This document shows, piece by piece, positions 1,407 through 18,726 of a DNA stretch of 64,000 nucleotides. The first letter of the stretch is position 1, and each line of letters starts with the position of its first letter. The DNA comes from Sphingopyxis fribergensis. GTDB taxonomy: Bacteria > Pseudomonadota > Alphaproteobacteria > Sphingomonadales > Sphingomonadaceae. The translations under genes and the position numbers were made by a program. Under the pieces are notes generated by a model. The model did not search any database. It was not told the origin of the DNA and worked only from the letters and a program-made list of their open reading frames with translations. The stretch spans positions 1,278,501 to 1,342,500 of the forward strand of contig NZ_CP009122.1 in the NCBI RefSeq assembly GCF_000803645.1, read 5' to 3'.

Positions 1407-1423
1407 CTTAGTATTCTATCTAA
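1407..1423. promoter_or_regulatory. Putative operator, copy A of island-wide motif
   Basis: The sequence CTTAGTATTCTATCTAA lies in the 80-bp gap between the divergent MetE-like gene and acyl-CoA ligase. It matches 14 of 17 positions of the element at 16773-16789 and shares the CTTAG/CTAAG core with those at 4623, 9079 and 18711. The AT-rich composition stands out from the GC-rich surroundings. The binding protein is unknown. Confidence 0.6.
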
Positions 1424-1454
1424 TTCAAGTCGAAACGACGGTTGGGAGAGCAAA

Positions 1455-3020
1455 ATGATCGATCTGGAGGCCATCCGGACGCTGGCGGATATTCCGGCGG
1501 CGCAGGCGTGCGTGCGGGGGCAGGCGACCGCAGTGAAGTTCGGGGAACGCGAGACGAGCTTTGCCGAGCTCGATGCGCGTTCCAACCGTGTCGCGCATGC
1601 CCTGATCGCCGCGGGGCTCGCGGCTGGCGACCGCGTTTCGGCGCTGACCAAGAACCACGACAGCTGGTATCCGCTTTTCTTCGGCACGGCGCGCGCGCGC
1701 GCCTGTTTCGCGCCCATCAACTGCCGCCTTGCGCCTGCCGAGATCGGCTTCATCCTGGGCGATGCGGGGCCGAAACTGCTGTTCGTCGGCGAGGATTTCT
1801 TCGACTGTGCGCTGGCTGCGGTCGCCGATCTGGCTGTGCCGCCCCGGTTGATCGCACTGTACGGCGCGCATCCCGCGTTCGAACCCTTCGAGACCTGGCT
1901 GGGCGAGGCACCCGACGCTCCGCTCGCCGACCCGCCGCAACTCACCGACGATGTGCTCCAGCTCTACACCAGCGGCACGACCGGCCTGCCGAAGGGCGTC
2001 GTGCTCACCAACGCCAACTACCGCACTTTCCTCGAAGCCGCGACCGAGGTCGACGGCTTTGCCTATGGTGAGGACGAGACGGTGATGATCGTCATGCCCT
2101 TGTTCCACGTCGCGGGCACGAATGTCAGCTTCTCGGGGCTCGCGCAGGGCGGGCGGCTGGTCCTCGTCAAGGATTTCACCGCCGCCGACGCGGTACGCAT
2201 GATGCGCGAGGACAATGTCGCGCACGCCTTCCTTGCGCCCGCGATGATCCAGATGATGCTACTCCAGCCGGCTGCCAATAGTGGCGCATATCCTGCGCTC
2301 AAGTCGATCGCCTACGGGGCTTCGCCGATCGCCGAGGATGTCCTGCGCCGCGCGCGCGCGACCTTCGGCTGCGATTTCGTGCAATTCTACGGCATGACCG
2401 AGTCGGCCGGCGGCGGTTCCTATCTGTCGCCGAACGCGCATGATCTGCCGGGCAAGCTCACCTCGTGCGGCAAGCCCTGGCCCGGCGCCGCGATGGCGAT
2501 CCTCGATGGGGAGGGGGCAGAGCTTGGCGACGGCGAGATCGGCGAAATCGCGATCTCCGGCGGCATCGTGATGAAGGGCTATTGGAACCGCGCCGCAGCG
2601 ACCGAAGAGACGCTTGCGGGCGGCTGGCTCCACACAGGCGATGTCGGTTATCGCGATGTCGACGGCTTCTATTACGTCCACGACCGCATCAAGGACATGA
2701 TCGTGTCGGGCGGCGAGAATGTCTATCCGGCCGAGGTCGAAAGTGCGATCATGGGCTGCCCCGGCGTCGCCGACGTCGCGGTGATCGGGGTTCCGGACGA
2801 CAAATGGGGCGAAAGCGTGAAGGCGCTAATCGTGCCTGCGGCGGGCACCACGCTAGACCCTGACGATATCGTCGCCTGGGCGCGCGAAAGGATCGCAGCA
2901 TACAAGATCCCCAAGAGCGTCGAGTTCATCGATGCGTTGCCGCGCAACCCCTCGGGCAAGGTGCTCCGCCGCGAATTGCGCGCTCCTTATTGGGAAGGCC
3001 GCGTCCGGGCGGTGGGGTAG
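1455..3020 (+). CDS. AMP-binding acyl-CoA ligase (fatty-acid/aryl-acid CoA synthetase family)
   Basis: The 521-residue protein has the full adenylate-forming fold. The phosphate-binding loop YTSGTTGLPKGV is at about residues 171-182, the adenine/substrate motif YGMTE at 312-316, the hinge-region GWLHTGD near 395 and the catalytic lysine in NPSGKVLRR near the C-terminus. The chosen ATG follows the Shine-Dalgarno GGGAGA by six bases; longer in-frame starts would run through the promoter. It should activate a carboxylic acid to its CoA thioester in the cytosol, the entry step for the beta-oxidation-like enzymes encoded downstream. The acid cannot be predicted from sequence; FadD3-like or medium/long-chain ligases are the nearest described types. 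Confidence 0.93.
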   Translation: MIDLEAIRTLADIPAAQACVRGQATAVKFGERETSFAELDARSNRVAHALIAAGLAAGDRVSALTKNHDSWYPLFFGTARARACFAPINCRLAPAEIGFILGDAGPKLLFVGEDFFDCALAAVADLAVPPRLIALYGAHPAFEPFETWLGEAPDAPLADPPQLTDDVLQLYTSGTTGLPKGVVLTNANYRTFLEAATEVDGFAYGEDETVMIVMPLFHVAGTNVSFSGLAQGGRLVLVKDFTAADAVRMMREDNVAHAFLAPAMIQMMLLQPAANSGAYPALKSIAYGASPIAEDVLRRARATFGCDFVQFYGMTESAGGGSYLSPNAHDLPGKLTSCGKPWPGAAMAILDGEGAELGDGEIGEIAISGGIVMKGYWNRAAATEETLAGGWLHTGDVGYRDVDGFYYVHDRIKDMIVSGGENVYPAEVESAIMGCPGVADVAVIGVPDDKWGESVKALIVPAAGTTLDPDDIVAWARERIAAYKIPKSVEFIDALPRNPSGKVLRRELRAPYWEGRVRAVG

Positions 3021-3050
3021 AATGTCGGCTTAGGGTGGGGAGCGGACATA

Positions 3051-3348: not shown

Positions 3349-4074
3349 TCAATCGCCCTTCACCGCCGCATGGTTGGCGTCGCCGAACATGTTCGACCAT
3401 TCTTTGTCGTCGAGCATCTGGTGCCGGCCGACATATTTCGCCGGGGGTTTCAGATCCTCGCGCGCCATCGCCCGCGCAACCGCGGGCCGTTCGCTTATGC
3501 GCTCGAACCACGCGCGCATCGCGGGCCATTCGTCGAGGCCCATTCCCATGACGAAGGCCGAGGCGCGGCCGGGCCAGATTGCCATGTCGGCGATACTATA
3601 GTCTTCGCCCGCAACATAAGCGCTCTTCTCCAGCCTGTTTTCTAGCACGGTGAGCAAGCGATTCAATTCCTTGGTGTAGCGCGCGGTCGCATAATCCTGC
3701 CCCGCCGGCGCGTAGCGCAGGAAATGGCTCGCCTGCCCGCCCATCGGGCCCAGTCCGGCGACCTGCCAAGTCAACCACGACAAGGTCGCCGCACGCGCCG
3801 CGCCCGGTGCGGGCAGGAAGCGACCGCTTTTTTCGGCAAGATATTGCAGGATCGCGCCCGATTCAAAAACGGTTATCGGATCGCCGCCACCCGCCGGGTC
3901 TTGATCGACGATCGCGGGCAGCTTGTGGTTCGGATTGACCCGCCCGAACTCAACCGTCAGTTGGTCACCATCGAAGATGTCATAGGGAATGACGCGGTAC
4001 GGCTCGCCGATTTCCTCGAGCATGATCGCGATCTTTTGTCCGTTCGGGGTCGCCGAATAATGAAGGTCGATCAT
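3349..4074 (-). CDS. Glutathione S-transferase, YfcG/YghU-like (GST 1)
   Basis: This 241-residue cytosolic GST has an N-terminal thioredoxin-like domain beginning MIDLHYSATPNGQKI; the TPNG loop is the active-site signature of the YfcG/Ure2p-like (Nu) class, in which Thr and Asn rather than Tyr or Ser contact glutathione. The cis-proline motif KLPAIVD and the ESGAILQYLAE segment complete the glutathione site, and an all-helical C-terminal domain follows. Family members often act as disulfide reductases or reduce peroxides and quinones. It starts one base after the stop of the DUF3237 gene, so both form a minus-strand operon read from the operator at 4623. It resembles the GSTs at 7436 and 14839, so duplication within the island is likely. 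Confidence 0.92.
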   Translation of the reverse strand: MIDLHYSATPNGQKIAIMLEEIGEPYRVIPYDIFDGDQLTVEFGRVNPNHKLPAIVDQDPAGGGDPITVFESGAILQYLAEKSGRFLPAPGAARAATLSWLTWQVAGLGPMGGQASHFLRYAPAGQDYATARYTKELNRLLTVLENRLEKSAYVAGEDYSIADMAIWPGRASAFVMGMGLDEWPAMRAWFERISERPAVARAMAREDLKPPAKYVGRHQMLDDKEWSNMFGDANHAAVKGD

Positions 4075-4075
4075 C

Positions 4076-4582
4076 TCACAGCACCTCGTGGATCACATGG
4101 CGCACCCCGAAATCGGTACGCTCGCCGACGCCGACCGCGAGCACGCCGTTGAGCCAGCCATATTTTGCGCTCGCGGTTTCGAAGACCGGCGCGATTCGCA
4201 AATAATAGCGCGACGGGTCCGCGTCGGGCACAGCGGGGTCGACGAACGTCGCACGCACGTCATCGGGAATGATGTTACGTCCGGTGTAGCTCAGATAGAT
4301 CAGCTCGCCGTCGTCGGTCTGCCATACCGCGCGGGCATCGAAGGTGCCGACCGAAGCGGCATCGCCGAGCCGCCCGGCACGCGACCAATTGCCGCCGCCC
4401 GGCAACACTATACCGTTGATACGAGGTCCGAAAAAGCGGCCGCCGCTGATGTAGCCCAACCGCTGATCACCGAAGGGCGACGCGCCGATGCCGACAATGC
4501 CGCCGCCCACCTCGAACTCGACGGTGCACAGATGGCGTGTCGCCAGCGCGGCGGGCATATCATGCGAATTTTCTTCGTTCAT
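4076..4582 (-). CDS. DUF3237 family protein
   Basis: The 168-residue product matches the size and pattern of DUF3237: a beta-rich barrel-like protein with G-rich turns (IVGIGASPFGDQR, GPRINGIVLPGGGNW) and the late segment YLRIAPVFETASAKYGWLN. No signal peptide is seen. The start is the ATG preceded by the Shine-Dalgarno AGAGG; an upstream start would put extra residues inside the promoter. DUF3237 has no assigned reaction, but genes of this family often occur beside aromatic or xenobiotic degradation genes. It is the first gene of a two-gene operon with GST 1 and is divergent from the TBDT, so a role with the imported substrate is inferred. Confidence 0.82.
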   Translation of the reverse strand: MNEENSHDMPAALATRHLCTVEFEVGGGIVGIGASPFGDQRLGYISGGRFFGPRINGIVLPGGGNWSRAGRLGDAASVGTFDARAVWQTDDGELIYLSYTGRNIIPDDVRATFVDPAVPDADPSRYYLRIAPVFETASAKYGWLNGVLAVGVGERTDFGVRHVIHEVL

Positions 4583-4622: not shown

Positions 4623-4636
4623 ATTAGTATACTAAG
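4623..4636. promoter_or_regulatory. Putative operator, copy B of island-wide motif
   Basis: ATTAGTATACTAAG contains the perfect 12-bp palindrome TTAGTATACTAA and lies between the divergent DUF3237 and TBDT genes. The ATACTAAG half is shared with the reverse complement of copy A. It probably controls both transcription units. Confidence 0.6.
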
Positions 4637-4704: not shown

Positions 4705-6930
4705 ATGAAGGCGCATAACCAGTTCCTGCTGTCCGGCGTGGCCGCGATCGCAATGCTTGCCAATGCCGCACCGGCGATGGCGCAGGCGGCCTCCGCCGAC
4801 ACGGCGGACATCGACGACAGCAACACCAACGAAATCATCGTCACCGCGCAAAAGCGCGAGCAGAGCCTGCAGGACGTGCCGATTTCGATGGAAGTTGTCA
4901 GCGGCGCCAAGCTCGCCGAATTCAACACCAGCGATATCAAGGCGGTGATGAACTACACGCCGAACGTCTTTGTCCAGTCGACCGCAGGCAACGACGTCAT
5001 CTATATTCGCGGTTTCGGTTCGCCGCCGGCGAACTTCGCTTTCGACCAGTCGGTCTCGCTCTATGTTGACGGCATCTATGCCGGCCGCAACCGGCAGGCG
5101 CAGGCGCCCTTCTTCGATCTCGCGCGCGTCGAAGTGCTGCGCGGCCCGCAAGGCGCCTTGTTCGGCAAAAATACTGCGGCGGGCGCGGTCAGCGTCGTTT
5201 CGGCGGGTCCGACGAAGGATTTCGAAGGCGCGATCACCGGCCTTTATAATTTCGACCATAAGGGCACCGATTTCTCGGGCTATCTGTCGGGGCCGATCAG
5301 CGACACGCTCGGCGCGCGCTTTGCGTACAAGATCGTCAATCAGGATGGCTATATCTACAACCGTGCGACCGATCATGACGATCCCGAAATCAAGTCGCAG
5401 TTGCTGCGCCTGACCGTCAAATGGGAGCCGTCGGACGATTTCGACTATACGGCGAAGGTAGAGTACGGGAACCGCGAAGTGATCGGCGGCATCACCGTGT
5501 CGAGCCCGCTGACCAGCGGACAGGATCCGCAGACGACGCGCTATGTGGAACGCGCGGCGCTCGGCGACGAGGGCAACAAGAACAAGTCGGTGATGATCTC
5601 GGGCGTCGGCAACCTCGCGCTCGGCGATTTCACGCTGACCTCGGTGACCGGCTACAGCTGGTTCAAGTCGAAGATCGTCAACGGGTTCGACCAGACGATC
5701 CCGAACAGCGGCGGCGCCTTTGTTCCGAACTCGGTGTATAACGCCTTCCCCGAACGTTTCGACCAGATTTCCCAGGAAATCCGCATCCTGTCGCCGACGG
5801 GCAAGACCCTCGAATTCATCGCGGGCGCCTATTACGACAAGTCCGACTATACGCTGGAGCAATATCAGGGCTTCAACATCGCAAGCCTGAACTATTTCGG
5901 CCGTATCGACAGCATCTTCCGGCAAAAGGCCGAATCCTGGTCGGTGTTCGGCCAGGCGACCTTCAACATCAGTGATGCGTTCCGCGCGATCGGCAGCCTG
6001 CGTTACAGCCACACAAAGAAGGACGGCGATTTCGCGGCAAGGCTCGTCTATGGCCCCTTCGCGCTGCGTCCGATCTCGAGTGCGACGGGTTCGATCAGCG
6101 AGGGCAATGTCGATCCGTCGGTGACGCTGCAATATGATATCGCGCCGCGGATCATGGTCTATGCGACGTGGGGCCGCGGGTCGAAATCGGGTGGCTTCGT
6201 GTCGAACACGCTTGGCACCGTCGATAGCACCTTCACCTTCGAACCCGAACGTTCGGAGAATTTCGAGGCCGGCATCAAGTCGACATTGTTCGACGGCAAG
6301 GTTGTCGCGAATCTCTCGGCCTATCACACCAAGTTCAAGGATCTGCAGGTCTCGGTCTATCAGCCCGCAACCTCGAGCTATCTGACCGGCAATGCCGCCG
6401 CCGCGACGTCGAAGGGGCTCGAAGGATCGCTCAGCATCTTCCCGATCCCCAATTTCGACATCAGCGCGTCGGCCGCCTATGCCGATATCAAATATGACGA
6501 TTATCCGGGCGCGGCCTGCCTGGCTTCACAGATTGGCTGCACCCCGGCAACGAATAATCTGGCCGGTTATCCCGTCGCTTACTCGTCGAAGTACACCGGC
6601 AGCGTCACTGCACACGCCCGCTTCGACCTGTCGAGCGATCTGAAATTCGACATCACCGGCGTCGCGTCGGCGCGGTCGAAATATTTCAACTCGGACAACC
6701 AGAGCCCGATCTTTGGGGTGCAGAACGGCTATGCAAAGCTCGACCTGCGCGTCCAACTCGCCGATCAGGACGACAGCTGGCACGTCGCGCTTGTCGGCAA
6801 GAATCTGACCAACGAAAAGACGATCGGCAGCGCATTCAACCTGCCGTCGCCGATCACCGCGACGCCGCGCGCGATCCTCTATCTCGAACCCACCCGCAAT
6901 ATTTCGGTCGAGGCCGGGATCAAGTTCTAG
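4705..6930 (+). CDS. TonB-dependent outer-membrane receptor (TBDT 1)
   Basis: The 741-residue precursor opens with a signal peptide (MKAHNQFLLSGVAAIAMLA, cleavage after APAMAQA). A TonB-box region and plug follow (IIVTAQKREQSLQDVPIS), then VEVLRGPQGALFGKNT and a long beta-barrel. The last residue is Phe, as expected for Bam-dependent barrels. The ATG at 4705 is used because GGGAGGGT precedes it and the signal peptide starts there. In sphingomonads such receptors mostly import organic substrates rather than siderophores. It heads an operon with a SnoaL-like protein and a GST, under the operator at 4623, so it most likely brings the island's substrate into the periplasm. Confidence 0.95.
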   Translation: MKAHNQFLLSGVAAIAMLANAAPAMAQAASADTADIDDSNTNEIIVTAQKREQSLQDVPISMEVVSGAKLAEFNTSDIKAVMNYTPNVFVQSTAGNDVIYIRGFGSPPANFAFDQSVSLYVDGIYAGRNRQAQAPFFDLARVEVLRGPQGALFGKNTAAGAVSVVSAGPTKDFEGAITGLYNFDHKGTDFSGYLSGPISDTLGARFAYKIVNQDGYIYNRATDHDDPEIKSQLLRLTVKWEPSDDFDYTAKVEYGNREVIGGITVSSPLTSGQDPQTTRYVERAALGDEGNKNKSVMISGVGNLALGDFTLTSVTGYSWFKSKIVNGFDQTIPNSGGAFVPNSVYNAFPERFDQISQEIRILSPTGKTLEFIAGAYYDKSDYTLEQYQGFNIASLNYFGRIDSIFRQKAESWSVFGQATFNISDAFRAIGSLRYSHTKKDGDFAARLVYGPFALRPISSATGSISEGNVDPSVTLQYDIAPRIMVYATWGRGSKSGGFVSNTLGTVDSTFTFEPERSENFEAGIKSTLFDGKVVANLSAYHTKFKDLQVSVYQPATSSYLTGNAAAATSKGLEGSLSIFPIPNFDISASAAYADIKYDDYPGAACLASQIGCTPATNNLAGYPVAYSSKYTGSVTAHARFDLSSDLKFDITGVASARSKYFNSDNQSPIFGVQNGYAKLDLRVQLADQDDSWHVALVGKNLTNEKTIGSAFNLPSPITATPRAILYLEPTRNISVEAGIKF

Positions 6931-8258: not shown

Positions 8259-9026
8259 TCACACTGTGTTGGCATGGCCCCACTGATATTCGACCTTGCC
8301 CTCAAGCCGCCGCACAGCAACCCAGTCGCCCCCCGCGAGCCTGTCGTCCTCGATGAGCATAGCCACCGCGCCCGCAATATCCTCCGGAATGCACGCCTCG
8401 TTGTTCGCGAGAACGGTCTTCATCCACTCGGATTTGCCGCCCGTACCCGTCGTGTCGAGGATCGGCGTGTCGACCAACCCCGGAAGCATCCCCGCGACGC
8501 GGACATTGCATTCGTCCTTCAATCCGGCGCAGCAGCGCGTGAACATCATCACCGCCGCCTTGGTCGTCGCATACATCGCATCGTAAAACCCGGTGCCGAG
8601 CGCGACGGTCGACACGGTGTTGATGATCACCCCACCACCGCGCTTTTTCATTGCCTGCACCGCGATCTGCGTCGCCGCGACGAGCGAGGTGATGTTGACG
8701 TCGATGATCCAGCGGATGCGCGCGGCATCGACGTCTGGAAATTGCGGCAGGCCCGAAACGACGCCGGCATTATTGTGCAATATGTCGACGTCGCCATGCG
8801 CCTGAAACCAAGCCTCGGTCGCGGGAATGTCCGACAGATCCGGCGTGTGGACGCTCGCCCGTGCGCCCGCAGCCGCTACCAGCCGCGCCGTCTCGGCGAG
8901 CCCCGCTTCGTTGACGTCGACCAGCGCGATCTCGGCTGCGCCGCGGCTCGCCAGCATCACCGCGGTTGCGCGGCCGATGCCGCCCGCCGCGCCCGTCACA
9001 ATGGCGGTTTTGCCGTTGATATCCAT
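8259..9026 (-). CDS. Short-chain dehydrogenase/reductase (SDR 1)
   Basis: The 255-residue protein is a classical SDR. The NAD(P)-binding TGAAGGIG is at residues 11-18, NNAG near 86, a catalytic Ser follows the MKKRGGG loop, and the YATTK (YxxxK) pair lies about 15 residues later. The acidic VDV after strand 2 suggests preference for NAD. The start is the ATG with the GGGAGAG Shine-Dalgarno; longer reading frames extend into the MFS gene's leader and are artefacts. It is divergent from the MFS operon around the operator at 9079. It should oxidise or reduce a hydroxyl/keto group of an island intermediate, for example the beta-oxidation step, but this is inferred. Confidence 0.92.
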   Translation of the reverse strand: MDINGKTAIVTGAAGGIGRATAVMLASRGAAEIALVDVNEAGLAETARLVAAAGARASVHTPDLSDIPATEAWFQAHGDVDILHNNAGVVSGLPQFPDVDAARIRWIIDVNITSLVAATQIAVQAMKKRGGGVIINTVSTVALGTGFYDAMYATTKAAVMMFTRCCAGLKDECNVRVAGMLPGLVDTPILDTTGTGGKSEWMKTVLANNEACIPEDIAGAVAMLIEDDRLAGGDWVAVRRLEGKVEYQWGHANTV

Positions 9027-9066: not shown

Positions 9067-9095
9067 TTGACAGATAAACTTAAATATCTAAGTAT
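9067..9095 (+). promoter_or_regulatory. Promoter with overlapping operator, copy C
   Basis: A -35-like TTGACA (9067-9072) is followed after 17 bp by AAGTAT (9090-9095). The near-palindrome CTTAAATATCTAAG (9079-9092) with the extended half CTAAGTAT fills the spacer. An operator between -35 and -10 is typical of repressor control. It would serve the MFS operon and possibly the divergent SDR 1. Confidence 0.6.
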
Positions 9096-9134: not shown

Positions 9135-10430
9135 ATGACAGACGCCACCGCCCTCAATGGAGGCGCCGCCGCGTCCGACAGCGGCCTTTCGCTGCGTCGC
9201 AACGCCGCGCTCGTGATGCTGTTCGTGGTCGGCACGATCAACTTCGTCGACCGCCAACTGCTCTCGGTGCTGGTCGAACCGATCCGCGCCGAGATGGATT
9301 TCAGCGACACCCAGTTCGGCCTGCTCACCGGCCTCGCCTTCGCGCTCTTCTATGCCGCGATGGGGGTTCCCGTCGCGATGGTCGCCGACCGTTGGAACCG
9401 CGTCAAGCTGATCGGCATCGCGTGCGTGGTGTGGAGCGGATTCACCGCGGCGTGCGGCTTTGCATCGAATTTCTGGCAGCTTGCGCTGATGCGTTTCGGC
9501 GTCGGTGCAGGGGAGGCTGGCGGCACCGCCCCGTCGTTGTCGGTCATCGCCGATTATTATCCGCCGGCGCAGCGTCCGCTCGCGATCGGCATCTTCACCT
9601 GCAACGGCCCCTTTGGCGTCTTCGTTGGCGCGGCGTTCGGCGCGTGGGCGGCGGCGAACATCGGCTGGCGCAACGCGTTCGTCGTGATCGGCATCGTCGG
9701 CATTTTGGTTGCGCCCCTGCTGATCTGGCTGGTGCGCGAACCCGCGCGCGGGGCGATGGATACGCACAAGCCCGCCGACGAGGCGCTGCCCTTCAGCCAG
9801 AGCCTCGCGATGTTCATCCGCCGTCCGTCACTCCGCATGGTGATGATCGGCAGCGGGCTCGCCGCCTTCGTCAGCTATGGGATGCTCAACTGGATCCCCG
9901 CCTTCCTGATGCGCACGCAGAAGATGCCATTGGAAGCGATGGCGACCTGGTTCGCGCCCGCTGCGGGCATCACATTCGGCATTGGCATTCTCGGCGGCGG
10001 CTGGCTCGTCAGCCACCGCGCCAAGACGTCGGCGCGCGCTTATGGCACGATCCCTGCTCTCGCAACCGCGCTGCTGATCCCGACCTTCATCGCGGCATTG
10101 CTCGTCGACACGTGGCAGCTGTCGCTCGCGCTGATGCTCGTGCCGATGGCGGCTTGCACCGCCTATGTCGCGCCCGCCCTGGCGCTGGTGCAGAACCTCA
10201 CCCCACCGCGCAGCCGCGCGACCGCCGCCGCGGTGCTGATGCTGATGTTCAATATCATCGGCCTCGGCCTTGGCCCATTGTTCGCGGGGATCGTCAGTGA
10301 CGCTCTGAAAGATACGCATGGCGTCGACAGCCTGCGCTGGGCGCTGATGGCGCTGATGCCCTTCGCTGCCGCCGCGGGGATCGCCCAATATGCGATGACG
10401 CGACACCTCGAAAAGGACTTCGCCGAATGA
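9135..10430 (+). CDS. MFS transporter (spinster-like/organic acid transporter)
   Basis: The 431-residue protein has about 12 hydrophobic segments. The first contains NFVDRQLLSVLVEPI, and the motif-A-like loop after helix 2 reads VADRWNRVKLIG, both typical of the Spns/ACS-related MFS group common in sphingomonad degradation clusters. It begins an operon of at least five genes; its TGA overlaps the ATG of SDR 2. It probably moves the substrate or an acidic intermediate across the inner membrane, complementing the outer-membrane receptor at 4705. Import is more likely than efflux from context, but the sequence does not decide this. Confidence 0.92.
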   Translation: MTDATALNGGAAASDSGLSLRRNAALVMLFVVGTINFVDRQLLSVLVEPIRAEMDFSDTQFGLLTGLAFALFYAAMGVPVAMVADRWNRVKLIGIACVVWSGFTAACGFASNFWQLALMRFGVGAGEAGGTAPSLSVIADYYPPAQRPLAIGIFTCNGPFGVFVGAAFGAWAAANIGWRNAFVVIGIVGILVAPLLIWLVREPARGAMDTHKPADEALPFSQSLAMFIRRPSLRMVMIGSGLAAFVSYGMLNWIPAFLMRTQKMPLEAMATWFAPAAGITFGIGILGGGWLVSHRAKTSARAYGTIPALATALLIPTFIAALLVDTWQLSLALMLVPMAACTAYVAPALALVQNLTPPRSRATAAAVLMLMFNIIGLGLGPLFAGIVSDALKDTHGVDSLRWALMALMPFAAAAGIAQYAMTRHLEKDFAE

Positions 10431-11314
10431 CCGACGTCGCAGGCAAAACCGCCTTCATCACCGGCGGCGCGAGCGGGCTCGGGCTCGCAACCGCCAAAGC
10501 GCTCGCCGCGAAGGGGGCATCGGTGATCCTCGCCGATATCGACGCAGTGGGCGCCGAAAATGCAGCGGCGGGGCTGCGAAGCGACGGCGCGAACGCGCTT
10601 GGCCTCCAACTCGACGTGACGAGCGAAGACAGCTGGGCCGACGCGGGCGCCAAGGCGCGCGAATTCGGCCCGGTGCGCATCCTGTTCAGCAACGCGGGCG
10701 TCGGCGGCGGATCGGGGCCGTTCGAGCAATATGACACCGACGTCTGGCGCTGGAACTACGCCGTCAACGCGCATGCGCAACTTTATGCCTGCCGCACCTT
10801 CCTCGGCGACATGAAGGCGAGCGGCGAGCCGAGTCACCTCGTCATCACCTCGTCGATGGTCGCGATCGTGCCGCCGCCGATTTCGGTCGCCTATATCAGC
10901 TCGAAATATGCGACGCTCGGCATTGCGATGGCGCTGCGCAACGAACTGGCCGCAACCTGCGTCGACATATCGGTCCTGATGCCCGGCATGTCGGCGACGC
11001 GGATCGTCGAGACGACGCGCGACCTGCGCCCCGTCGAAAACGAGGTCGGTACGGCGGCGGCGACCAGCCAAGCGATGCAGGGTGTGCTTGCAGGCGGGAT
11101 GGACCCCGCCAAGGTCGGTGCGCATGTCGTCGCCGCGATCGAGGCCGGCGATTACTGGATTTTCACCCACCCTGAATGGAAGGCGATGGCCGAACTGGTG
11201 ACGCAGGATATGCTGTCGTCCTTTGGCCCTTCTGCCGATCCGGATTACCAGGGCGACGATATCGACGGGCTGATCGCCGCCAATGGCGGCCGGATGTTCG
11301 GCGCGAAAAAATAG
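10427..11314 (+). CDS. Short-chain dehydrogenase/reductase (SDR 2)
   Basis: The 295-residue protein is an SDR with TGGASGLG at residues 12-19, an acidic LADID after strand 2, NAG in LFSNAGVGGG, a Ser in ITSSMVA and the catalytic pair in YISSK near residue 160. A long C-terminal extension (HPEWKAMAELVTQDML and beyond) resembles SDRs that act on larger ring or acyl substrates. It overlaps the MFS gene by four bases (ATGA). Likely an NAD-dependent alcohol dehydrogenase of the same pathway as SDR 1. Confidence 0.92.
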   Translation: MTDVAGKTAFITGGASGLGLATAKALAAKGASVILADIDAVGAENAAAGLRSDGANALGLQLDVTSEDSWADAGAKAREFGPVRILFSNAGVGGGSGPFEQYDTDVWRWNYAVNAHAQLYACRTFLGDMKASGEPSHLVITSSMVAIVPPPISVAYISSKYATLGIAMALRNELAATCVDISVLMPGMSATRIVETTRDLRPVENEVGTAAATSQAMQGVLAGGMDPAKVGAHVVAAIEAGDYWIFTHPEWKAMAELVTQDMLSSFGPSADPDYQGDDIDGLIAANGGRMFGAKK

Positions 11315-11323
11315 GAGAGAGAC

Positions 11324-11719
11324 ATGGCTGAGCAGGACGACATCCGCGCAATGGCGCAGCGTTTTTTCGACGCAATCGAGGCGGGCGATATCGAGACGAT
11401 GCAGGGCAGCTTCAACCCCGATGCCGAGATCTGGCACAACACCGACGAGCTGATCGTCACCCCGGCGCAGACCGCGGCGACGCTGACCGGCATGGTCGCG
11501 CGGATCAAGGACCGCGAATATGCCGACCGCCGACTGACCACCTTCCCCGGCGGCTTCGTCCAGCAGCATGTCCTGAAGGGCGTGCGCGTCCATGACGAAG
11601 GCCCGGTCCGTCTGCCCTGCGCGATCATCTGCAAGGTCGCGAACGGCAAGATCACGCGCCTCGACGAATATTTCGACAGCGCGCACGTCGCCGAATTCCG
11701 CAAATTTGCAAACGCCTGA
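11324..11719 (+). CDS. SnoaL-like / NTF2-fold protein 2
   Basis: The 131-residue product has the limonene-epoxide-hydrolase/SnoaL-like layout: IRAMAQRFFDAIEAGDIETMQGSF (first segment), the conserved IWHNTDELIVTPAQ strand and a C-terminal NGKITRLDEYFDSA segment, the usual end of SnoaL polyketide-cyclase-type proteins. It sits nine bases after SDR 2 behind the Shine-Dalgarno GGAGAGA and ten bases before the CMD-like gene. It may be an isomerase, hydratase or epoxide-opening enzyme; Asp and Arg residues of the LEH triad cannot be assigned with confidence. Confidence 0.87.
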   Translation: MAEQDDIRAMAQRFFDAIEAGDIETMQGSFNPDAEIWHNTDELIVTPAQTAATLTGMVARIKDREYADRRLTTFPGGFVQQHVLKGVRVHDEGPVRLPCAIICKVANGKITRLDEYFDSAHVAEFRKFANA

Positions 11720-11729
11720 GGAGCCCATC

Positions 11730-12377
11730 ATGCCCGTCTTGCGCCAGGTTCCCCGCTCGGAAGTCACCGACGAAACCGTCCTCGCCTATTACAACCGCCT
11801 GTTCGGCGACCGTGACCCCGTCGCCGAGCCCGGTACCGCGACCGGCACGCCGGGCGACTGGTGGACGGTGTTCGCACTGTCGCCCGACATCTTCGAACAT
11901 GCAGTCAAGGGTTTCGCCGTATACCGCAACCCGGCGCGCACGATCGACCCGGTGCTGCGCGAGCTTGGCCAGACCCGCGCGGGCTGGGTCAAGGGCAGCC
12001 AATTCGTCTTTTCGCAGCATTGCAAGTCGCTCCGCGGCCTCGGCGTCAGCGAAGAGAAGATCGCCGCCATTGCGCACTGGCAGGTCGCCGACTGCTATGA
12101 CGAGCAGGAACGCACGGTGCTCGCCTATGCCGACTGCCTCGCGCAGGCGGGCGGGCGCGTCCCGCTGGAGGTGTTCGACAAACTCAAGACCTTTTGGAAC
12201 GACGAGCAGATTTTCGAATTCACCTACATCACCTGCCTGTACGATATGCACGCGGTGATCACCCGCGCGCTGCGCATGGAATATGACGCGCGCGAAGACC
12301 CGATCGTCGAGATCGCCGCGCCCGAAGGCTTTAGCGCTGCCGACTTTCTCAGCGCCCCGCGTCCAGCGGGCGGATGA
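11730..12377 (+). CDS. Carboxymuconolactone decarboxylase (CMD/AhpD-fold) family protein
   Basis: The 215-residue protein has the CMD helical pattern around WVKGSQFVFSQHCKSLRGLGVSEEKI and a second helix FEFTYITCLYDMHAV. The AhpD-type CxxC is absent, because only a single Cys is present in QHCKS, so peroxidase activity is unlikely and a CMD-like decarboxylase or binding role is favoured. The ATG at 11730 follows GAGGAG and removes an artefactual extension through the preceding gene. It overlaps the SMP-30 gene by four bases (ATGA). Proximity to a lactonase suggests lactone handling, as in the protocatechuate pathway, but the substrate differs and is unknown. Confidence 0.87.
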   Translation: MPVLRQVPRSEVTDETVLAYYNRLFGDRDPVAEPGTATGTPGDWWTVFALSPDIFEHAVKGFAVYRNPARTIDPVLRELGQTRAGWVKGSQFVFSQHCKSLRGLGVSEEKIAAIAHWQVADCYDEQERTVLAYADCLAQAGGRVPLEVFDKLKTFWNDEQIFEFTYITCLYDMHAVITRALRMEYDAREDPIVEIAAPEGFSAADFLSAPRPAGG

Positions 12378-13288
12378 GCGTTTACGGCGTCCCCGAGGTC
12401 GTCGCGACGGGCCTTCGTTTCCCCGAAGGTCCCGTGCCGATGCCCGACGGGTCGGTACTGCTGGTCGAGATCGCGCGTGGCACGCTGACGCGCGTCGCGC
12501 TCGACGGCAGCCTGTCGGTGGTCGCCGAACTTGGCGGCGGACCAAATGGCCTCGCAATCGACCCCGATGGCGCGGCCTATGTCTGCAACAATGGCGGGTT
12601 CGAGTGGATCGAGGCGGGCAGCTTGCTGTTTCCCGGCCACGCCGCGCATGCCGGGGCGTGCGGGTCGATCCAGCGCGTCGACCTCACTACCGGCGCGGTG
12701 ACGACACTCTACGACAGCTTCGAGGGTGAGCGGCTCAAGGGGCCGAACGACATTGTCTTCGACGCCGCCGGCGGCTTCTGGTTCACCGACCACGGGCAGG
12801 TGCGCGACACCGGCCGCGATCATGGTGCCATCTATTATGCGGCGGCCGACGGATCGAAGATCAGCCGCCAACGCGCCGACATGATGGGGCCGAACGGGAT
12901 CGGCCTGTCGCCCGATGGCGCGACGCTCTATGTCAGCGAGACGATGACGGCGCGCGTCTGGGCGATGGATGTGGTTGCGCCGGGCGAGCTGGCGCCGCCG
13001 CCGCCGTGGGCGCCCGGCCGCTTCGTCGGCACCCCGCCCGCCTTTCGCCTGCTCGACAGCATGGCCATCGAGGAGAGCGGACGCATCTGCGTCGGCACGA
13101 TGGTCGAGGGCGGGATTACGATTTTCGACCCCGATGGCGGCGGTTCGGAGTTCGTGCCACTGCCGGATGTCGGGATCACGAACATCGCCTTCGGCGGCGC
13201 CGATCGGCGCGATGCGTATATCACCGCATCGACCACCGGGACGCTATACCGCGTGCGCTGGCCGCGGCGCGGAACGAAGTCGCATTAA
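12374..13288 (+). CDS. SMP-30/gluconolactonase-like beta-propeller hydrolase
   Basis: The 304-residue protein shows the six-bladed propeller signatures of the SMP-30/gluconolactonase/LRE-like family: LRFPEGPVPMPDGSVLL with the metal-ligand Glu in FPEGP, GGGPNGLAID with the conserved Asn, GPNDIVFDAAGGFWFTD and GPNGIGLSPDG. These provide the usual Ca/Zn-binding Glu, Asn and Asp residues. No signal peptide is present, so it works in the cytosol. Members hydrolyse lactones or related cyclic esters. It ends the MFS-SDR-SnoaL-CMD-SMP30 operon. Confidence 0.9.
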   Translation: MSVYGVPEVVATGLRFPEGPVPMPDGSVLLVEIARGTLTRVALDGSLSVVAELGGGPNGLAIDPDGAAYVCNNGGFEWIEAGSLLFPGHAAHAGACGSIQRVDLTTGAVTTLYDSFEGERLKGPNDIVFDAAGGFWFTDHGQVRDTGRDHGAIYYAAADGSKISRQRADMMGPNGIGLSPDGATLYVSETMTARVWAMDVVAPGELAPPPPWAPGRFVGTPPAFRLLDSMAIEESGRICVGTMVEGGITIFDPDGGGSEFVPLPDVGITNIAFGGADRRDAYITASTTGTLYRVRWPRRGTKSH

Positions 13289-13306
13289 CTGTCAACTTAA
13301 TTGACG

Positions 13307-13327
13307 ATTAGAGCATTTGATGCTAGA
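13307..13327. promoter_or_regulatory. Inverted repeat upstream of GST 3
   Basis: The perfect repeat AGCAT-TTG-ATGCT lies within ATTAGAGCATTTGATGCTAG, 25 bp before the GST 3 start and just after an AT-rich stretch with TTGACG. Its outer TTAGA and CTAG ends echo the island motif, but the spacing differs, so membership is uncertain. Confidence 0.35.
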
Positions 13328-13351
13328 AAAGACTCAAGGAAGAGGATGGGC

Positions 13352-13969
13352 ATGAAATTTTATAACTCCATCGGCCCCAATCCGCGCGTCGTGACGATGT
13401 TCATGGCCGAAAAGGGTATCGAGATCCCCAAGGTCACAATCGACCTGCGCGGCGGCGAGAACCGGCGTGCCCCCTATTGCACCGACGTCAATCCGTCGGG
13501 TCAGACGCCGGCACTCGAACTCGACGATGGCAGTTTCCTTTGTGAGATCACCGCAATCTGCGAATATCTGGAAGAACGCTTCCCCGAACCGCCGCTCATC
13601 GGCACGACCGCCGAAGAACGGGCGAACACGCGCATGTGGACGCGCCGCGTCGACATCAAGATCTGCGAGCCGCTGACCAATGGATTTCGCTATTCCGACG
13701 GCCTGCCTTTGTTCGAGCCGCGGATGCGTTGCCTGCCCGAAGCCGCGGCGGGTCTGAAGGCGGTCGCGCAGGACGGCGTCCGCTGGCTCGACCCGCTGAT
13801 CGCGGACCGCGACTATATCGCCGGCGACACATTGTCGCTCGCCGACCTGCTGCTCTTCGCATTCCTCGATTTCGGCGTGTCGGTCGGTCAACCGATCGAC
13901 CCCGAGAACATCAATGTCGCGCGCTGGTACGAGCGGATGAAAAGTCGCCCCAGCGCCAATGTAAACTGA
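13352..13969 (+). CDS. Glutathione S-transferase (GST 3)
   Basis: The 205-residue protein begins MKFYNSIGPNPRVVTMFMAEK and contains GQTPALELDDG, the cis-Pro and glutathione gamma-Glu-binding strand, then EITAICEYLEERFPEP. Its active-site loop (SIGPNP) differs from the TPNG loop of GSTs 1, 2 and 4, so it is a different subclass and not a recent copy. The ATG at 13352 is chosen over one at 13346 because AGGAAGAGG then has a six-base spacing. It is followed after 18 bases by the VOC gene. The pairing of a GST with a glyoxalase-fold protein suggests a glutathione-dependent isomerisation or cleavage. Confidence 0.9.
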   Translation: MKFYNSIGPNPRVVTMFMAEKGIEIPKVTIDLRGGENRRAPYCTDVNPSGQTPALELDDGSFLCEITAICEYLEERFPEPPLIGTTAEERANTRMWTRRVDIKICEPLTNGFRYSDGLPLFEPRMRCLPEAAAGLKAVAQDGVRWLDPLIADRDYIAGDTLSLADLLLFAFLDFGVSVGQPIDPENINVARWYERMKSRPSANVN

Positions 13970-13987
13970 ACCACAAGGAGATGGATC

Positions 13988-14581
13988 ATGGCTGTAGCGA
14001 ATAGCGAATTCGAATTTTGCGGGGTCAATCACCTCGCGCTCGTGTGCAAGGATATGGCGAAAACGGTCGAATTCTATCGCGACACGCTCGGCATGCCGCT
14101 CACCAAGACGATCGACCTGCCCGGCGGCCGCGGCCAGCATTTCTTCTTCGATATCGGCAATGGCGACAGCCTCGCCTTCTTCTGGTTCCCCGAAGCGCCC
14201 GAAGCGGTTCCCGGCATCTCGGCCCCCGCGGCGCTGCCGACGCAGGGCAGCTTTGTTTCAGCGCACGGGTCGATGAACCATATCGCGATCAACGTTCGCG
14301 CCGACAAGTTCGACGATTATTACCAGCGCCTGGTCGACAAGGGAATCAACGTCAGCAAGGTGCTGAACCACGACGACAGCCCGATGCAGTCTACCGACGA
14401 ACTGCACCCCGGCGTATTTGTGCGCTCAGTCTATTTCTTCGACCCCGACGGCGTCTGCCTCGAATTTGCGGCGTGGACGAAAGAATTCGACGAAAGCGAT
14501 GTGGCGCACGACCCGGTGCAGGCCGACGGCACCAAGCGCGAAGGCCTCATCACCGGCCGGACGCCGGTCCCCGCCGAATAG
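13988..14581 (+). CDS. VOC/glyoxalase-fold protein
   Basis: The 197-residue protein has two beta-alpha-beta-beta-beta units. The first begins VNHLALVCKDMAKTVEFYRDTLGM and the second MNHIAINVRADKFDDYYQRL. Metal ligands of the vicinal-oxygen-chelate fold are visible: His in NHLAL, His in NHIAI and Glu in VCLEFAAW. Activities in this superfamily include glyoxalase, epimerase, ring-cleaving dioxygenase and glutathione transferase; the length is too short for a typical two-domain extradiol dioxygenase. It has a good AAGGAG ribosome site and is followed by an intrinsic terminator. Confidence 0.87.
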   Translation: MAVANSEFEFCGVNHLALVCKDMAKTVEFYRDTLGMPLTKTIDLPGGRGQHFFFDIGNGDSLAFFWFPEAPEAVPGISAPAALPTQGSFVSAHGSMNHIAINVRADKFDDYYQRLVDKGINVSKVLNHDDSPMQSTDELHPGVFVRSVYFFDPDGVCLEFAAWTKEFDESDVAHDPVQADGTKREGLITGRTPVPAE

Positions 14582-14838: not shown

Positions 14839-15543
14839 TCAGCGCTTCACATGCTGGCGGTCGCCCCACAGGATCGCGCGATGCTCATCGGTGAAGCCGG
14901 TGAGCCCGCCCTCGATCGTCTCGGCGCGCGCGACGCCGACCTTCATGCCCTCAGCGACAGCGGGGCGTTCGAGCATCGCGGCGCCCCAGCGATCGACATT
15001 CGGGAAACGCCCCGCCTTTTCGATCAGCTGACGGCGCAAATAGGGCAGGGTCGCCATGTCGGCGATACTATAGTCGCCGCCCGCGAGCCATTCGGCCTCG
15101 CCCAAACGCTTGTCGATCACCATCATCAGCCGGTCGACCTCGCGGCTGTAGCGCTCAATGGCGTATTCGTGCCGGTCCTTGGCATAGTGGGTGAAATGCG
15201 CTTCCTGCCCGAACATCGGGCCGACGCCCGACACCTGGAACATCAACCATTGCCAGCAGATCGCGCGCCCTAATGGATCGCTCGGCACGAAGAGCCCGGT
15301 CTTCTCGGCAAGATAGAGCAGGATCGCGCCGGTTTCCCAAAGCACGAACCGCTCCCCGTCCGGCCCTTCATCATCGACGATCACCGGGGTCTTGTTGTTC
15401 GGGTTGAGCGCGAGGAACGCGGGCGTCAGCTGATCGCCCGCGAGGATGTCGATATAGTCGAGCCGCCATTCGAGACCCATTTCGAGCAGCGCAATCGCAA
15501 TCTTGCGCGCGTTGGGGGTGGGGCCGCCATAAAGGGTAATCAT
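14839..15543 (-). CDS. Glutathione S-transferase, YfcG/YghU-like (GST 4)
   Basis: The 234-residue protein begins MITLYGGPTPNARKIAIALLE; the TPN loop again marks the YfcG-like class. KTPVIVDDEG and ETGAILLYLAEKTG complete the glutathione site. The C-terminal segment GVGPMFGQEAHFTHYAKD is homologous to those in GSTs 1 and 2. It lies four bases after the CaiB-type transferase stop and should be read with it. Three related copies in 12 kb imply specialisation of the GSTs to successive or similar steps. Confidence 0.92.
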   Translation of the reverse strand: MITLYGGPTPNARKIAIALLEMGLEWRLDYIDILAGDQLTPAFLALNPNNKTPVIVDDEGPDGERFVLWETGAILLYLAEKTGLFVPSDPLGRAICWQWLMFQVSGVGPMFGQEAHFTHYAKDRHEYAIERYSREVDRLMMVIDKRLGEAEWLAGGDYSIADMATLPYLRRQLIEKAGRFPNVDRWGAAMLERPAVAEGMKVGVARAETIEGGLTGFTDEHRAILWGDRQHVKR

Positions 15544-15547
15544 CGGA

Positions 15548-16711
15548 TCAGGCCTCCCGTCCGAGCCAGCGTTTCAGAACGTCGGCGCTATCCTGCCCGA
15601 CCGACAGCGGGGCAGGGCGGCGCACGCTGCCCGGCGTCGCCGACATTTTCGGGAACACGCCCTGCATTGTGACCTCGCCGAATTCCTCGTCGGCCACGGT
15701 CACCAGCGCGTCGCGCGCGGCGAAATGCGGGTCAGCCAGCATGTCCTCGGCGTCAAAGACGCGGCCCGCGGGGACGCCCGCCTCGACCATCTTCGCTTCG
15801 AGTTCGGCGATCGTCAGCGTCGCCGTCCATTCGCCGATCAGCGCGTCGAGCTCCTCCTGCCGCACCCCGCGCGCGCGGTGCGTGGCATAGCGTTCGTCGC
15901 TCGCGAGTTCGGGTCGCCCCATCGCCGCGGCAAGACGCGCGAAGACGCCATCCTGGTTGGCGCCGATCAGATATTCGCCATCCTTGCACGGATAGACATT
16001 CGACGGCGCAATGCCGGGCAGCGTCGACCCCGTGCGCCGACGCTTCACGCCGCTCGCCGAATAGTCCGATACGGTCGATTCCATCACCTGGAGCACCGCT
16101 TCATAGAGCGCGGAATCGACGATCTGGCCTTCGCCGGTCTTGCTGCGGTGATGGAGGGCGGCGAGCGCGCCCATGCAGCCGTATGTCGCGGCGAGCGTGT
16201 CGCCGATCGACACCCCCATGCGCGCGGGCGGCAGGTCGGGATAGCCGACGATGCCGCGCCAGCCGCCCATCGCCTCGCCGATGCCGCCAAAGCCCGCACG
16301 CGCCGAATAGGGGCCGGTCTGTCCATAACCCGACACGCGCACGACGATCAGCCCGGGGTTTGTCTTGCGCAGTTCGGCCGGATCGAGGTTCCATTTCTCG
16401 AGCGTTCCGGGGCGGAAATTCTCGATCAATATATCGGCCTTGGCGATCAGCTCGCGCGCGAGTTGCTGGCCCTCCGCAGAACGCAAATCGGCTGCGACCG
16501 AATATTTGTTGCGCGCGATCACGCGCCACCAGCTCGGCTTGTCGCCCTGGCCCCAGTTGCGCATTTGATCCCCGGTCACCGGCGGCTCGAGCTTGACGAT
16601 CTCGGCCCCCATGTCGCCGAGGAGCTGGCCGCAAAAGGGGCCCGCGATCAGCTGCCCCATCTCGACGACCCTGATGCCCTCCAGCGCGCCTCCGCTGCCC
16701 GTCTCGCTCAT
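15548..16711 (-). CDS. CaiB/BaiF family III CoA-transferase
   Basis: The 387-residue protein has the family III fold. The N-terminal RVVEMGQLIAGPFCGQLLGDMGAEIVKLE is the standard CoA-binding start and ENFRPG near residue 98 is conserved. D171 in GVSIGDTL aligns with the catalytic aspartate (D169 of formyl-CoA transferase) that carries the acyl-anhydride intermediate. It transfers CoA between an acyl-CoA donor and an acid, or acts as a racemase of the same fold. It heads a minus-strand operon with GST 4 and is divergent from the HMG-CoA-lyase-like gene across the operator at 16773. It would provide an ATP-free activation of a pathway acid. Confidence 0.93.
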   Translation of the reverse strand: MSETGSGGALEGIRVVEMGQLIAGPFCGQLLGDMGAEIVKLEPPVTGDQMRNWGQGDKPSWWRVIARNKYSVAADLRSAEGQQLARELIAKADILIENFRPGTLEKWNLDPAELRKTNPGLIVVRVSGYGQTGPYSARAGFGGIGEAMGGWRGIVGYPDLPPARMGVSIGDTLAATYGCMGALAALHHRSKTGEGQIVDSALYEAVLQVMESTVSDYSASGVKRRRTGSTLPGIAPSNVYPCKDGEYLIGANQDGVFARLAAAMGRPELASDERYATHRARGVRQEELDALIGEWTATLTIAELEAKMVEAGVPAGRVFDAEDMLADPHFAARDALVTVADEEFGEVTMQGVFPKMSATPGSVRRPAPLSVGQDSADVLKRWLGREA

Positions 16712-16772: not shown

Positions 16773-16789
16773 CTTAGAATGCTATGTAA
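16773..16789. promoter_or_regulatory. Putative operator, copy D of island-wide motif
   Basis: CTTAGAATGCTATGTAA is preceded by GTATA, giving the extended half-site ATACTTAG, and lies between the divergent CaiB and HMG-CoA-lyase-like genes. It is the closest match to copy A (14 of 17 bases). The surrounding 50 bp is AT-rich, as for a promoter. Confidence 0.65.
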
Positions 16790-16830: not shown

Positions 16831-17733
16831 ATGTTGAAAAATCGGACAGTGGAAATGGTCGAGGTCGGCCCGCGCGATGGTTTGCAGAATGAGACGAGGA
16901 TCGTCTCGACGGCCGACAAACTCGCGCTGATCCATCGCGCGATCGACTTTGGCGTCCGCCGCATCGAGGTGACGAGCTTCGTCAACCCGAAGAAGGTGCC
17001 GCAGCTTGCCGACGCCGAGGATCTTGTCGCGATGCTGCCCGATCGCGGCGATGTGACCTATATCGGCCTTGTCCTAAACCGCCGCGGCGCCGAGCGCGCG
17101 CTCGCCACGGGCCGGATCGACGAACTCGGCGCGGTGTGCGTGACCAGCGACAGCTTCGGCATCCGGAACCAAGGACAAAATTCAGACGAATCGCTCGCCG
17201 CCGCGATGGAGATTGTGGCGCTGGCGAAAGCGGCGGGGCGCGGTGGGCAGATCACCATCGCCACCGCCTTCGGTTGCCCGTTCGAGGGCGAAATCGCGAT
17301 CGATCGTGTCGTCGAGATGGCGAAGCGCGCCGCCGATGCTTCCCCCCGCGAAATCGCGTTGGCCGACACGATCGGCGTCGGCGTGCCCGCACGGGTTTCG
17401 GAGATGGTCGGTCGCGTGCGCGAGGCGGTCGGCGACCTGCCGGTGCGTGTCCATTTCCACAACACACGCGGCACCGGCATCGCCAATGTCTGGGCGGCGG
17501 TGAACGAAGGCGCGGCGACGGTCGATGCGTCGCTCGGCGGGCTCGGCGGTTGCCCGTTTGCGCCCGGCGCAGCGGGTAATGTCGCGACCGAGGACGTGAT
17601 CTATATGCTCGAAAAGAGCGGCGTAGAAACAGGTATCGCGTTGCCGCAGGTCGTCGAGGCGGCGGGATGGCTTGCTGGCGTCATGGGACGTGCCTTGCCA
17701 GCGATGGTCAGCAAAGCGCCGGCCTTCCCCTAA
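16831..17733 (+). CDS. Hydroxymethylglutaryl-CoA lyase-like retro-aldolase
   Basis: The 300-residue TIM-barrel enzyme carries all key HMG-CoA lyase residues: R15-D16 in EVGPRDGLQNE, the metal ligands H208 and H210 in VHFHNTRG, the catalytic C241 in GGLGGCPFAPGAAGN and N250. The Cys-Asn spacing equals that of the human enzyme. It should cleave a 3-hydroxy-3-methylacyl-CoA-type thioester to acetyl-CoA plus a keto acid. Leucine-pathway partners (methylcrotonyl-CoA carboxylase, isovaleryl-CoA dehydrogenase) are not adjacent, so the true substrate may be a longer or cyclic analogue produced by this island. Its end overlaps the convergent DMT gene by four bases. Confidence 0.92.
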   Translation: MLKNRTVEMVEVGPRDGLQNETRIVSTADKLALIHRAIDFGVRRIEVTSFVNPKKVPQLADAEDLVAMLPDRGDVTYIGLVLNRRGAERALATGRIDELGAVCVTSDSFGIRNQGQNSDESLAAAMEIVALAKAAGRGGQITIATAFGCPFEGEIAIDRVVEMAKRAADASPREIALADTIGVGVPARVSEMVGRVREAVGDLPVRVHFHNTRGTGIANVWAAVNEGAATVDASLGGLGGCPFAPGAAGNVATEDVIYMLEKSGVETGIALPQVVEAAGWLAGVMGRALPAMVSKAPAFP

Positions 17734-18641
17734 AAGGTCGCGAGCAGCGCCATCATGACGCCGCCGACGACGAGCAGCAGCCCGACGATCTCGTGCCAGC
17801 GCACCGGCTCGCGCAGATAGAAATGCGCAAAGCCGATCGTGAAGATGACCTCGACCTGCCCGACGATCCGCACAAGCGCGGCAGGCGCGGCCGCAAAGCC
17901 GATATACCAGCACGCCGAACCCAGCGCCGACAGCAGCCCGACCTGACTCGACGTTCGCCATTGCCGGCACACGGCGCGCAGCGTGTCGCGGTCGCGCACG
18001 CTGACCCATGCCAGATGCAGCGCGGTCTGGGTCGCCATCACCACGACGAGCGTGATGAGCGCCGAACCGATGAGGTCGACACCATCCAGTTCGGCGGTCG
18101 CGAGCTTCACCGCGATCGCCGCGAGCGCGAACATCGATCCCGCGCCGAGCCCGCACAGCGCCGCGGGCTGACCGAGCGCGCGCCATATCTCGCGCCATGA
18201 AACCCCGCGTCCGGCAAGCGCGAGCATGAGCACGCCCGCGACCCCCGCGACGATGCCGATCCATGCCAGCAGGGGCAGTCGCTCGCCGAGGAACAGCGCG
18301 GTGACGAGCGCGGCCTGCACCGCTTCGGTCTTTGAAAAGGCGGTGCCGACGACGAACCCGCGATGTCCGAACGCCATGATGAGCAGGATCGTCCCCGCCA
18401 TCTGCGTGATCGCTCCGGCGAACGCGAACGCAGCGAAGCCGGCGCCGAAGACAGGTATCGCCTCGCGCTGGACCGTCAGCCAGATGCCCGCAAAAACGAA
18501 AGCGAAGGGGACGCCGTAAAGATAGCGCACCAGTCCCGCGCCGCTGATGCTCAGCTCGGCGCGGAGGCGCTGTTGCAGCGCGGTTCGCCACGCCTGGAAC
18601 AAGCCGCCCAACAGCGATGCGGGAAGCCAGATCGGGTTCAT
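17730..18641 (-). CDS. EamA/DMT-superfamily transporter
   Basis: The 303-residue integral membrane protein has about ten hydrophobic helices arranged as two EamA repeats; the second half includes GLLSALGSACWYIGFAAAPAALVRIVGQVEVIFT and a C-terminal LREPVRWHEIVGLLLVVGG, the usual DMT end. The start ATG has GGGAAGAAG before it; a longer frame reaches into the promoter. Members export or import metabolites such as amino acids or organic acids. It is divergent from the acyl-CoA dehydrogenase at 18873 with the operator at 18711 between them, suggesting coregulation with the pathway. Confidence 0.9.
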   Translation of the reverse strand: MNPIWLPASLLGGLFQAWRTALQQRLRAELSISGAGLVRYLYGVPFAFVFAGIWLTVQREAIPVFGAGFAAFAFAGAITQMAGTILLIMAFGHRGFVVGTAFSKTEAVQAALVTALFLGERLPLLAWIGIVAGVAGVLMLALAGRGVSWREIWRALGQPAALCGLGAGSMFALAAIAVKLATAELDGVDLIGSALITLVVVMATQTALHLAWVSVRDRDTLRAVCRQWRTSSQVGLLSALGSACWYIGFAAAPAALVRIVGQVEVIFTIGFAHFYLREPVRWHEIVGLLLVVGGVMMALLATF

Positions 18642-18710
18642 CCGCTTCTTCCCTCCCGCATTTTGTTGTCGACTCGCGCCATGCTGTCCATGCCGCCCCA
18701 TGCAATAGTT

Positions 18711-18726
18711 TTATTACTAAGTATAT
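18711..18726. promoter_or_regulatory. Putative operator, copy E of island-wide motif
   Basis: TTATTACTAAGTATAT shares the ten-base CTAAGTATA half (with copy D reversed) and ACTAAG with copy B. It lies in the 231-bp gap between the divergent DMT transporter and acyl-CoA dehydrogenase 1. The other half-site is poorly conserved. Confidence 0.5.

Follow-up and report, generated by a model that had tools for sequence, protein, structure and literature searches.

The 64,000-nucleotide stretch of Sphingopyxis fribergensis DNA analysed here (NZ_CP009122.1, positions 1,278,501 to 1,342,500; hereafter the window) carries a catabolic island in which five AT-rich elements, B to F, lie in divergent intergenic gaps. 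Sequence comparison makes it likely that these elements are operators of a homodimeric MarR-family protein, MarR1, which is encoded 7.6 kb to the left of window base 1 (G000:C1:1270393-1270899), would repress nine promoter regions and would be released by a compound of the pathway. The operator family, its confinement to the island, its conservation and its link to MarR1 were established computationally. A previous reading of the window from its sequence only (the sequence-only reading) had proposed one operator family under a single regulator encoded elsewhere, and stated that the island holds no MarR gene.

All five elements share one form, the palindrome TTAG-NATN-CTAA with A/T-rich flanks, and all five gaps are divergent according to the gene models made here. 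Re-reading of the letters confirmed the places claimed for the elements, the identity of 14 of 17 bases between the copies at 1407-1423 and 16773-16789, the perfect palindrome in the copy at 4623 (4624-4635, TTAGTATACTAA) and an 8-mer common to three copies (CTAAGTAT). Operator B (12-bp core at 1408-1419, + strand, TTAGTATTCTAT; score 29.7 with the matrix described below) lies between a MetE-like gene (-) and an acyl-coenzyme A (CoA) ligase gene (+), operator C (4624-4635, no strand assigned; score 15.7) between a DUF3237 gene (-) and a TonB-dependent receptor gene (+), and operator D (9080-9091, +, TTAAATATCTAA; score 18.4) between genes for a short-chain dehydrogenase/reductase (SDR; -) and a major facilitator superfamily (MFS) permease (+). 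Operator E (16774-16785, +, TTAGAATGCTAT; score 29.0) separates a CoA-transferase family III gene (-) from an HMGL-like lyase gene (+), and operator F (18709-18720, +, TTTTATTACTAA; score 16.0) an EamA permease gene (-) from an acyl-CoA dehydrogenase gene (+). Operators D and F each have one imperfect half, and the imperfection itself is kept in relatives.

The elements were scored with a symmetrised 20-bp weight matrix built from 104 sites (66 distinct) in 38 of 63 MarR1 loci of other genomes, namely those with sites visible near MarR1. Each training site matched TTAGNATNCTAA best, with no more than one mismatch, at one of three places around MarR1 (those of operators S2 to S4, see below), and none came from the S. 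fribergensis genome. A scan of the window with this out-of-sample matrix ranked exactly B to F as the top five (29.7, 29.0, 18.4, 16.0 and 15.7), followed by a match of 4.4, confirming them as variants of one palindrome. Exactly five matches scored at least 12, where 200 dinucleotide shuffles yielded 0.06 on average; any match of at least 15 appeared in 4 of the 200. When single gaps were shuffled, the observed scores of B to F were reached 0, 4, 1, 0 and 1 times in 2000. Across the genome (5.2 Mb, two contigs), TTAGNNNNCTAA, the TTAG-N4-CTAA form, occurs at five places, four of them in the island and within 15 kb of each other (1268109, 1270218, 1270934 and 1283124), while the reversed pattern used as a control gave 30 matches per strand; the random genome-wide frequency that would have spoken against the motif was thus scanned for and did not occur. 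Similarly, TTAGTATNCTAA with at most one mismatch is found at seven places, five in the island. The strict 14-bp form CTTAGNATNCTAAG is present in 3 of 298 family genomes (this one, G046 and G203), only 7 of the 298 being of this genus. The 8-mer CTAAGTAT has seven places in the genome: three in the window, one ten kb to its left and three far off (2306270, 2313058 and 3024342), which were rejected as operators with matrix scores below 5 at each. Among ten further near-matches (L143-L152, chosen from 60 genome matches), only C2:138885 scored at least 10. This near-perfect operator (L144:3001-3012, score 11.1) occupies a divergent gap next to a phage-integrase gene of the 0.2-Mb contig, and we treat it as doubtful.

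To the left of the window, two stretches of 18 kb were examined, and the one holding MarR1 (L002) revealed that the island continues for about 10.4 kb beyond the window edge. MarR1 (L002:9893-10399, with an inferred TTG start) and a second MarR gene, MarR2 (L002:11038-11496, opposite strand), both lie in this left part, so the claim that the island is free of MarR genes does not hold. The matrix identified four more operators here: S1 (core L002:7609-7620, score 20.3) before a LeuC-like gene, which is followed by a LeuD-like gene; S2 (L002:9718-9729, score 34.3) between the LeuD-like gene and MarR1; S3 (L002:10434-10445, score 32.1) before a flavin mononucleotide (FMN) reductase gene; and S4 (L002:11602-11613, score 30.5) in the divergent gap between MarR2 and an acyl-CoA ligase operon. 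MarR1 is flanked on both sides by perfect palindromes, S2 and S3, and thereby shows a MarR-family trait, a palindromic operator beside the regulator's own gene. The shared operator at several promoters stands as proposed; the size of five was too small, as the island holds nine operators by matrix.

MarR1 contains the MarR winged-helix domain (PF01047, 56.2 bits against a cut-off of 24.6). An AlphaFold monomer model (19 rows) reached a pLDDT of 88.2 and a pTM of 0.72, and a Foldseek search with this model listed MarR proteins among its matches, with DNA-bound OhrR (1z9c) and SlyA (3q5f) in the first eight. All NCBIfam families remained below their cut-offs for MarR1, including the SlyA family (NF002926; 44.7 bits, cut-off 120) and the Saro_0803 family (NF053777; 41.2 bits, cut-off 200). 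The best-matching named contigs, at 94-98% identity, are nearly all Sphingopyxis.

The link between MarR1 and the operators was evaluated in 80 genus genomes, 62 with MarR1 (E<=1e-40; interrupted by a stop codon in one, G356) and 18 without. Matches to TTAGNATNCTA, counted on both strands so that palindromes count twice, averaged 9.98 per genome with MarR1 and 0.44 (maximum 2) without it; reversed TTAGNATNCTA gave 3.3 and 2.9, respectively. In four more distant loci (L056-L059; three Phenylobacterium and one Alphaproteobacteria, 57-60% MarR1 identity) a site starts 115-137 bp before the MarR1 match, while no site of at least 13 was found in L060-L063 (36-49% identity). As a separate observation, a further MarR1 paralogue (52-55% identity) occurs in seven genus genomes, among them G304 (C25:252000) and G309 (C1:771168), in both of which a motif match lies about 5 kb from it; this is perhaps a sister system using the same operator.

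The operators are conserved across the genus. Around MarR1, sites were found at S2 in 37 of 38 loci, at S3 in 37 of 38, at S4 in 34 of 37 (these three being the training places) and at B in 31 of 36, and S1 precedes LeuC in 22 of the 31 loci in which the sequence suffices. Of the 80 genus genomes, 59 carry the MFS gene of operator D (E<=1e-100), and 40 stretches around it (712,762 bases) contained 115 matrix matches of at least 12, against none after one shuffle of each. Sites of this strength were located at the starts of the DUF3237 (C, 38 of 38), MFS (D, 37 of 40), ligase (B, 30 of 32) and CoA-transferase genes (E, 4 of 4), and the only two matches left unassigned lie beside that genome's MarR1 in L129. 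In 30 EamA-centred loci, our own included, a site lies upstream of EamA in 28, in 25 of them with the imperfect half seen here; L179, L181 and L182 have a near-perfect palindrome there, which faces LeuC in two of the three, and no site was found upstream of EamA in L172 and L180. The operator E site is present in 25 of these 30 loci.

The operators also stay with their genes through rearrangement. The ligase gene lies to the left of C here, but in 32 of 40 stretches it stands on the right-hand side of the MFS start, 4.6-7.8 kb away, and operator C is kept in ten stretches whose adjoining receptor shows just 27-32% identity. MarR1 and the MFS gene are far apart on the contig in G301 (C1:724645 and C1:2489022) and G307 (2770297 and 2976352), and motif sites are present at both, i.e. 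with MarR1 0.2-1.8 Mb away. In G122 (722276 and 1786318), sites occur at the CoA-transferase and DUF3237 genes and none at the MFS gene (stretch L112). Overall, a regulator acting in trans is supported, and of the proposed single regulator the trans-acting part stands, with motif counts that follow MarR1; its location outside the island does not, as MarR1 lies inside it, beyond the window edge.

The placement of the operators relative to promoter-like hexamers suggests a mode of action. At the MFS gene, operator D overlaps the promoter-like TTGACA-N17-AAGTAT (9067..9095, + strand): the TTGACA lies at 9067-9072, and the element extends over the spacer and over the weak -10 (AAGTAT, 9090), as expected from the position reported for it. 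Of the 32 rows aligned, which excluded L109, L129, duplicates and everything past row 32, 30 keep the block with TTGACA and D almost unchanged; it is absent from L112 and L125. Directly before this TTGACA, a conserved block at 9040-9066 (ACCGTAAAGCACA) is not explained by the operator and is possibly the site of another factor. Operator C likewise overlaps the TGGACA-N16-TATACT of the receptor gene, and C, D, S3 and S4 all overlap the best promoter-like hexamers. The repressor-like placement first seen at D is clear at C and D and unclear at E and F, and a dimer covering promoters appears to be the best reading for most sites. Operator binding by MarR1, repression and autoregulation are inferred, as are an effector and a substrate. 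Each of the two recognition helices of the MarR1 homodimer would enter one TTAG half of TTAG-NATN-CTAA, and the bound dimer would hinder RNA polymerase at the nine promoter regions (those of the LeuC-like gene, LeuD-like/MarR1, FMN reductase and MarR2/acyl-CoA ligase operon, plus the five in the window). The dimer would come off in the presence of a compound of the pathway, perhaps a CoA thioester that one of the two ligases produces, and uptake across the outer membrane, transport across the inner membrane and catabolism would then be turned on jointly. Such an effector is plausible because CouR is released by p-coumaroyl-CoA and two ligase genes lie under operators.

Several points weigh against this mechanism. 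The training sites of the matrix were selected by core consensus, the relatives are close kin whose conservation counts are not independent cases, and the promoter scan used consensus hexamers without a random control. Three MarR1-bearing genomes have few motif matches (G345, 1; G299, 2; G298, 3), and no site of at least 13 was found in L034, L051, L053 and L054 despite 70-88% MarR1 identity; the recognition helix, nearly constant in site-bearing relatives, is so in L051, L053 and L054 as well and does not explain their lack of sites. At E, the best match to a promoter on the + strand does not begin until 5 bp after the operator, and F has only weak + strand matches, the best not clearly under it. 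An alternative explanation is that MarR1 binds and acts as an activator or dual regulator, at least at E and F, as some MarR proteins activate (PMC4737184; SlyA), and the promoter match just past E would suit such a role. Given the overlap with the best promoter-like hexamers at C, D, S3 and S4, we regard this as unlikely.

It is less likely still that the operators are bound by MarR2, or by a regulator elsewhere, with MarR1 a mere neighbour. MarR2 shares the island and has S4 in its divergent gap, and the genome contains 31 PF12802 matches. However, among the 27 of 63 MarR1 loci inspected, L047, L049 and L056-L059 showed no MarR2 and yet retained the operators beside MarR1; in addition, motif number follows MarR1 and the recognition helix of MarR2 differs. 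MarR2 was set aside as the regulator on the basis of the loci that keep operators without detectable MarR2. That the elements look alike by chance, as parts of AT-rich promoter regions, has a negligible probability: the loose count of CTAAGTAT alone, one mismatch allowed, is indeed not significant in the window (6 matches against 5.4 expected; 43 of 100 shuffles reach 6), but the reading is refuted by the out-of-sample matrix with its shuffle controls, the genome counts, the conservation and the MarR1-linked motif counts.

MarR1 as the probable repressor of the nine regions resembles three described systems. Similar to MarR1, the enterobacterial MarR-family protein SlyA has a proposed consensus (TTAGCAAGCTAA) with the same TTAG-N4-CTAA frame (PMC5797941), and its DNA-bound form ranks with the best fold matches found for the MarR1 model; MarR1 differs in falling below the SlyA family cut-off, in having a catabolic island as its targets and in the NATN centre of its operator. 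CouR of Rhodococcus jostii, a MarR repressor of p-hydroxycinnamate catabolism released by p-coumaroyl-CoA, controls several promoters of one catabolic regulon through operators over promoter boxes and in divergent gaps (PMC4737184). The MarR1 regulon likewise has one operator type at several promoters and in divergent gaps, with nine operators conserved in relatives, and its overlap with promoter-like hexamers is clear at C and D and unclear at E and F; the CouR box is cATTGA-TCAATg with a 5-bp spacer (PMC4737184). The nearest sphingomonad case found is Saro_0803 of Novosphingobium aromaticivorans, a MarR protein of nov1 with an AT-rich repeat close to a -10 box and small-molecule release (PMC10046596); its repeat, GCAATA...TATTGC, is another than that of MarR1 (PMC10046596), and MarR1 is below its family cut-off. 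HmgS is the MarR entry for tyrosine degradation, in other orders (PMC5343134). No description of the MarR1 regulon was found in literature on sphingomonad and Sphingopyxis MarR regulation, operator letters, DUF3237 in Sphingopyxis, RegPrecise and Sphingomonadales, hydroxycinnamoyl-CoA MarR proteins and the island enzyme set, a search that covered few subscription papers.

The genes under the operators encode uptake, transport and catabolic functions. From left to right, the window holds the MetE-like protein (PF01717; 316..1374, -), the AMP-binding acyl-CoA ligase (1455..3020, +), a YfcG-like glutathione S-transferase (GST; 3349..4074, -), the DUF3237 protein (4076..4582, -; taken to start at 4582, although longer versions are possible) and the TonB-dependent receptor (4705..6930, +), with genes for a SnoaL-like protein (6939-7439) and a GST (7436-8146) behind the latter on the same strand. 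These are followed by the SDR dehydrogenase (8259..9026, -) and the MFS permease (9135..10430, +), which presumably forms one operon with the SDR, SnoaL-like, AhpD/CMD-like, SMP-30-like, GST and glyoxalase-like genes behind it on the same strand (10427..14581, +). A further GST (14839-15543, -) and the CoA-transferase family III (15548-16711, -) precede the HMGL-like lyase (16831..17733, +), the EamA permease (17730..18641, -; start at 18641 or 18701) and the acyl-CoA dehydrogenase-like protein (18873..19895, +). To the left of the window, genes for the acyl-CoA ligase, a hydrolase-like protein, an aminoglycoside phosphotransferase (APH)-type kinase, an enolase and a 2-hydroxyacid dehydrogenase follow S4 on one strand towards the window. 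The regulon thus includes paralogues of enolase (L002:15411-16709) and of isopropylmalate isomerase LeuC/LeuD (L002:7709-9636); enolase and LeuC are considered paralogues because copies elsewhere in the genome score higher (675 and 761 bits, against 460 and 685 for the island copies). The PDB relatives of two YfcG-like GSTs, the kinase (one weak match) and the MetE-like protein (methionine synthases) did not name the substrate. An adjoining cluster (window 24862-37671; amidohydrolase, cupin-helix-turn-helix regulator, beta-lactamase-family hydrolases, MR_MLE enzyme, DUF1611 and M19 dipeptidase) has no operator match by matrix and looks like one for dipeptide or peptidoglycan-fragment use.

A more tentative idea, which we consider rather doubtful, is that MarR1 marks an undescribed Sphingopyxis/Phenylobacterium pathway reusing the enolase and isopropylmalate isomerase paralogues with the APH-type kinase, 2-hydroxyacid dehydrogenase and MetE-like protein, beside GSTs and the CoA-transferase/lyase pair. 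MarR1 would sense one CoA thioester of this pathway, and the conserved operator variants (imperfect at MFS and EamA, strong at MarR1 and the ligases) would order release, with transport before catabolism. As judged from the sequences, a food molecule probably turns all these genes on at once, through one MarR-type protein. The pathway occurs in most genus genomes searched, and the analysis supplies its probable regulator, the operator and a list of genes; MarR1 with its clean operator is a direct handle on the pathway substrate, and where the island is broken up, the operators show which scattered genes belong together.

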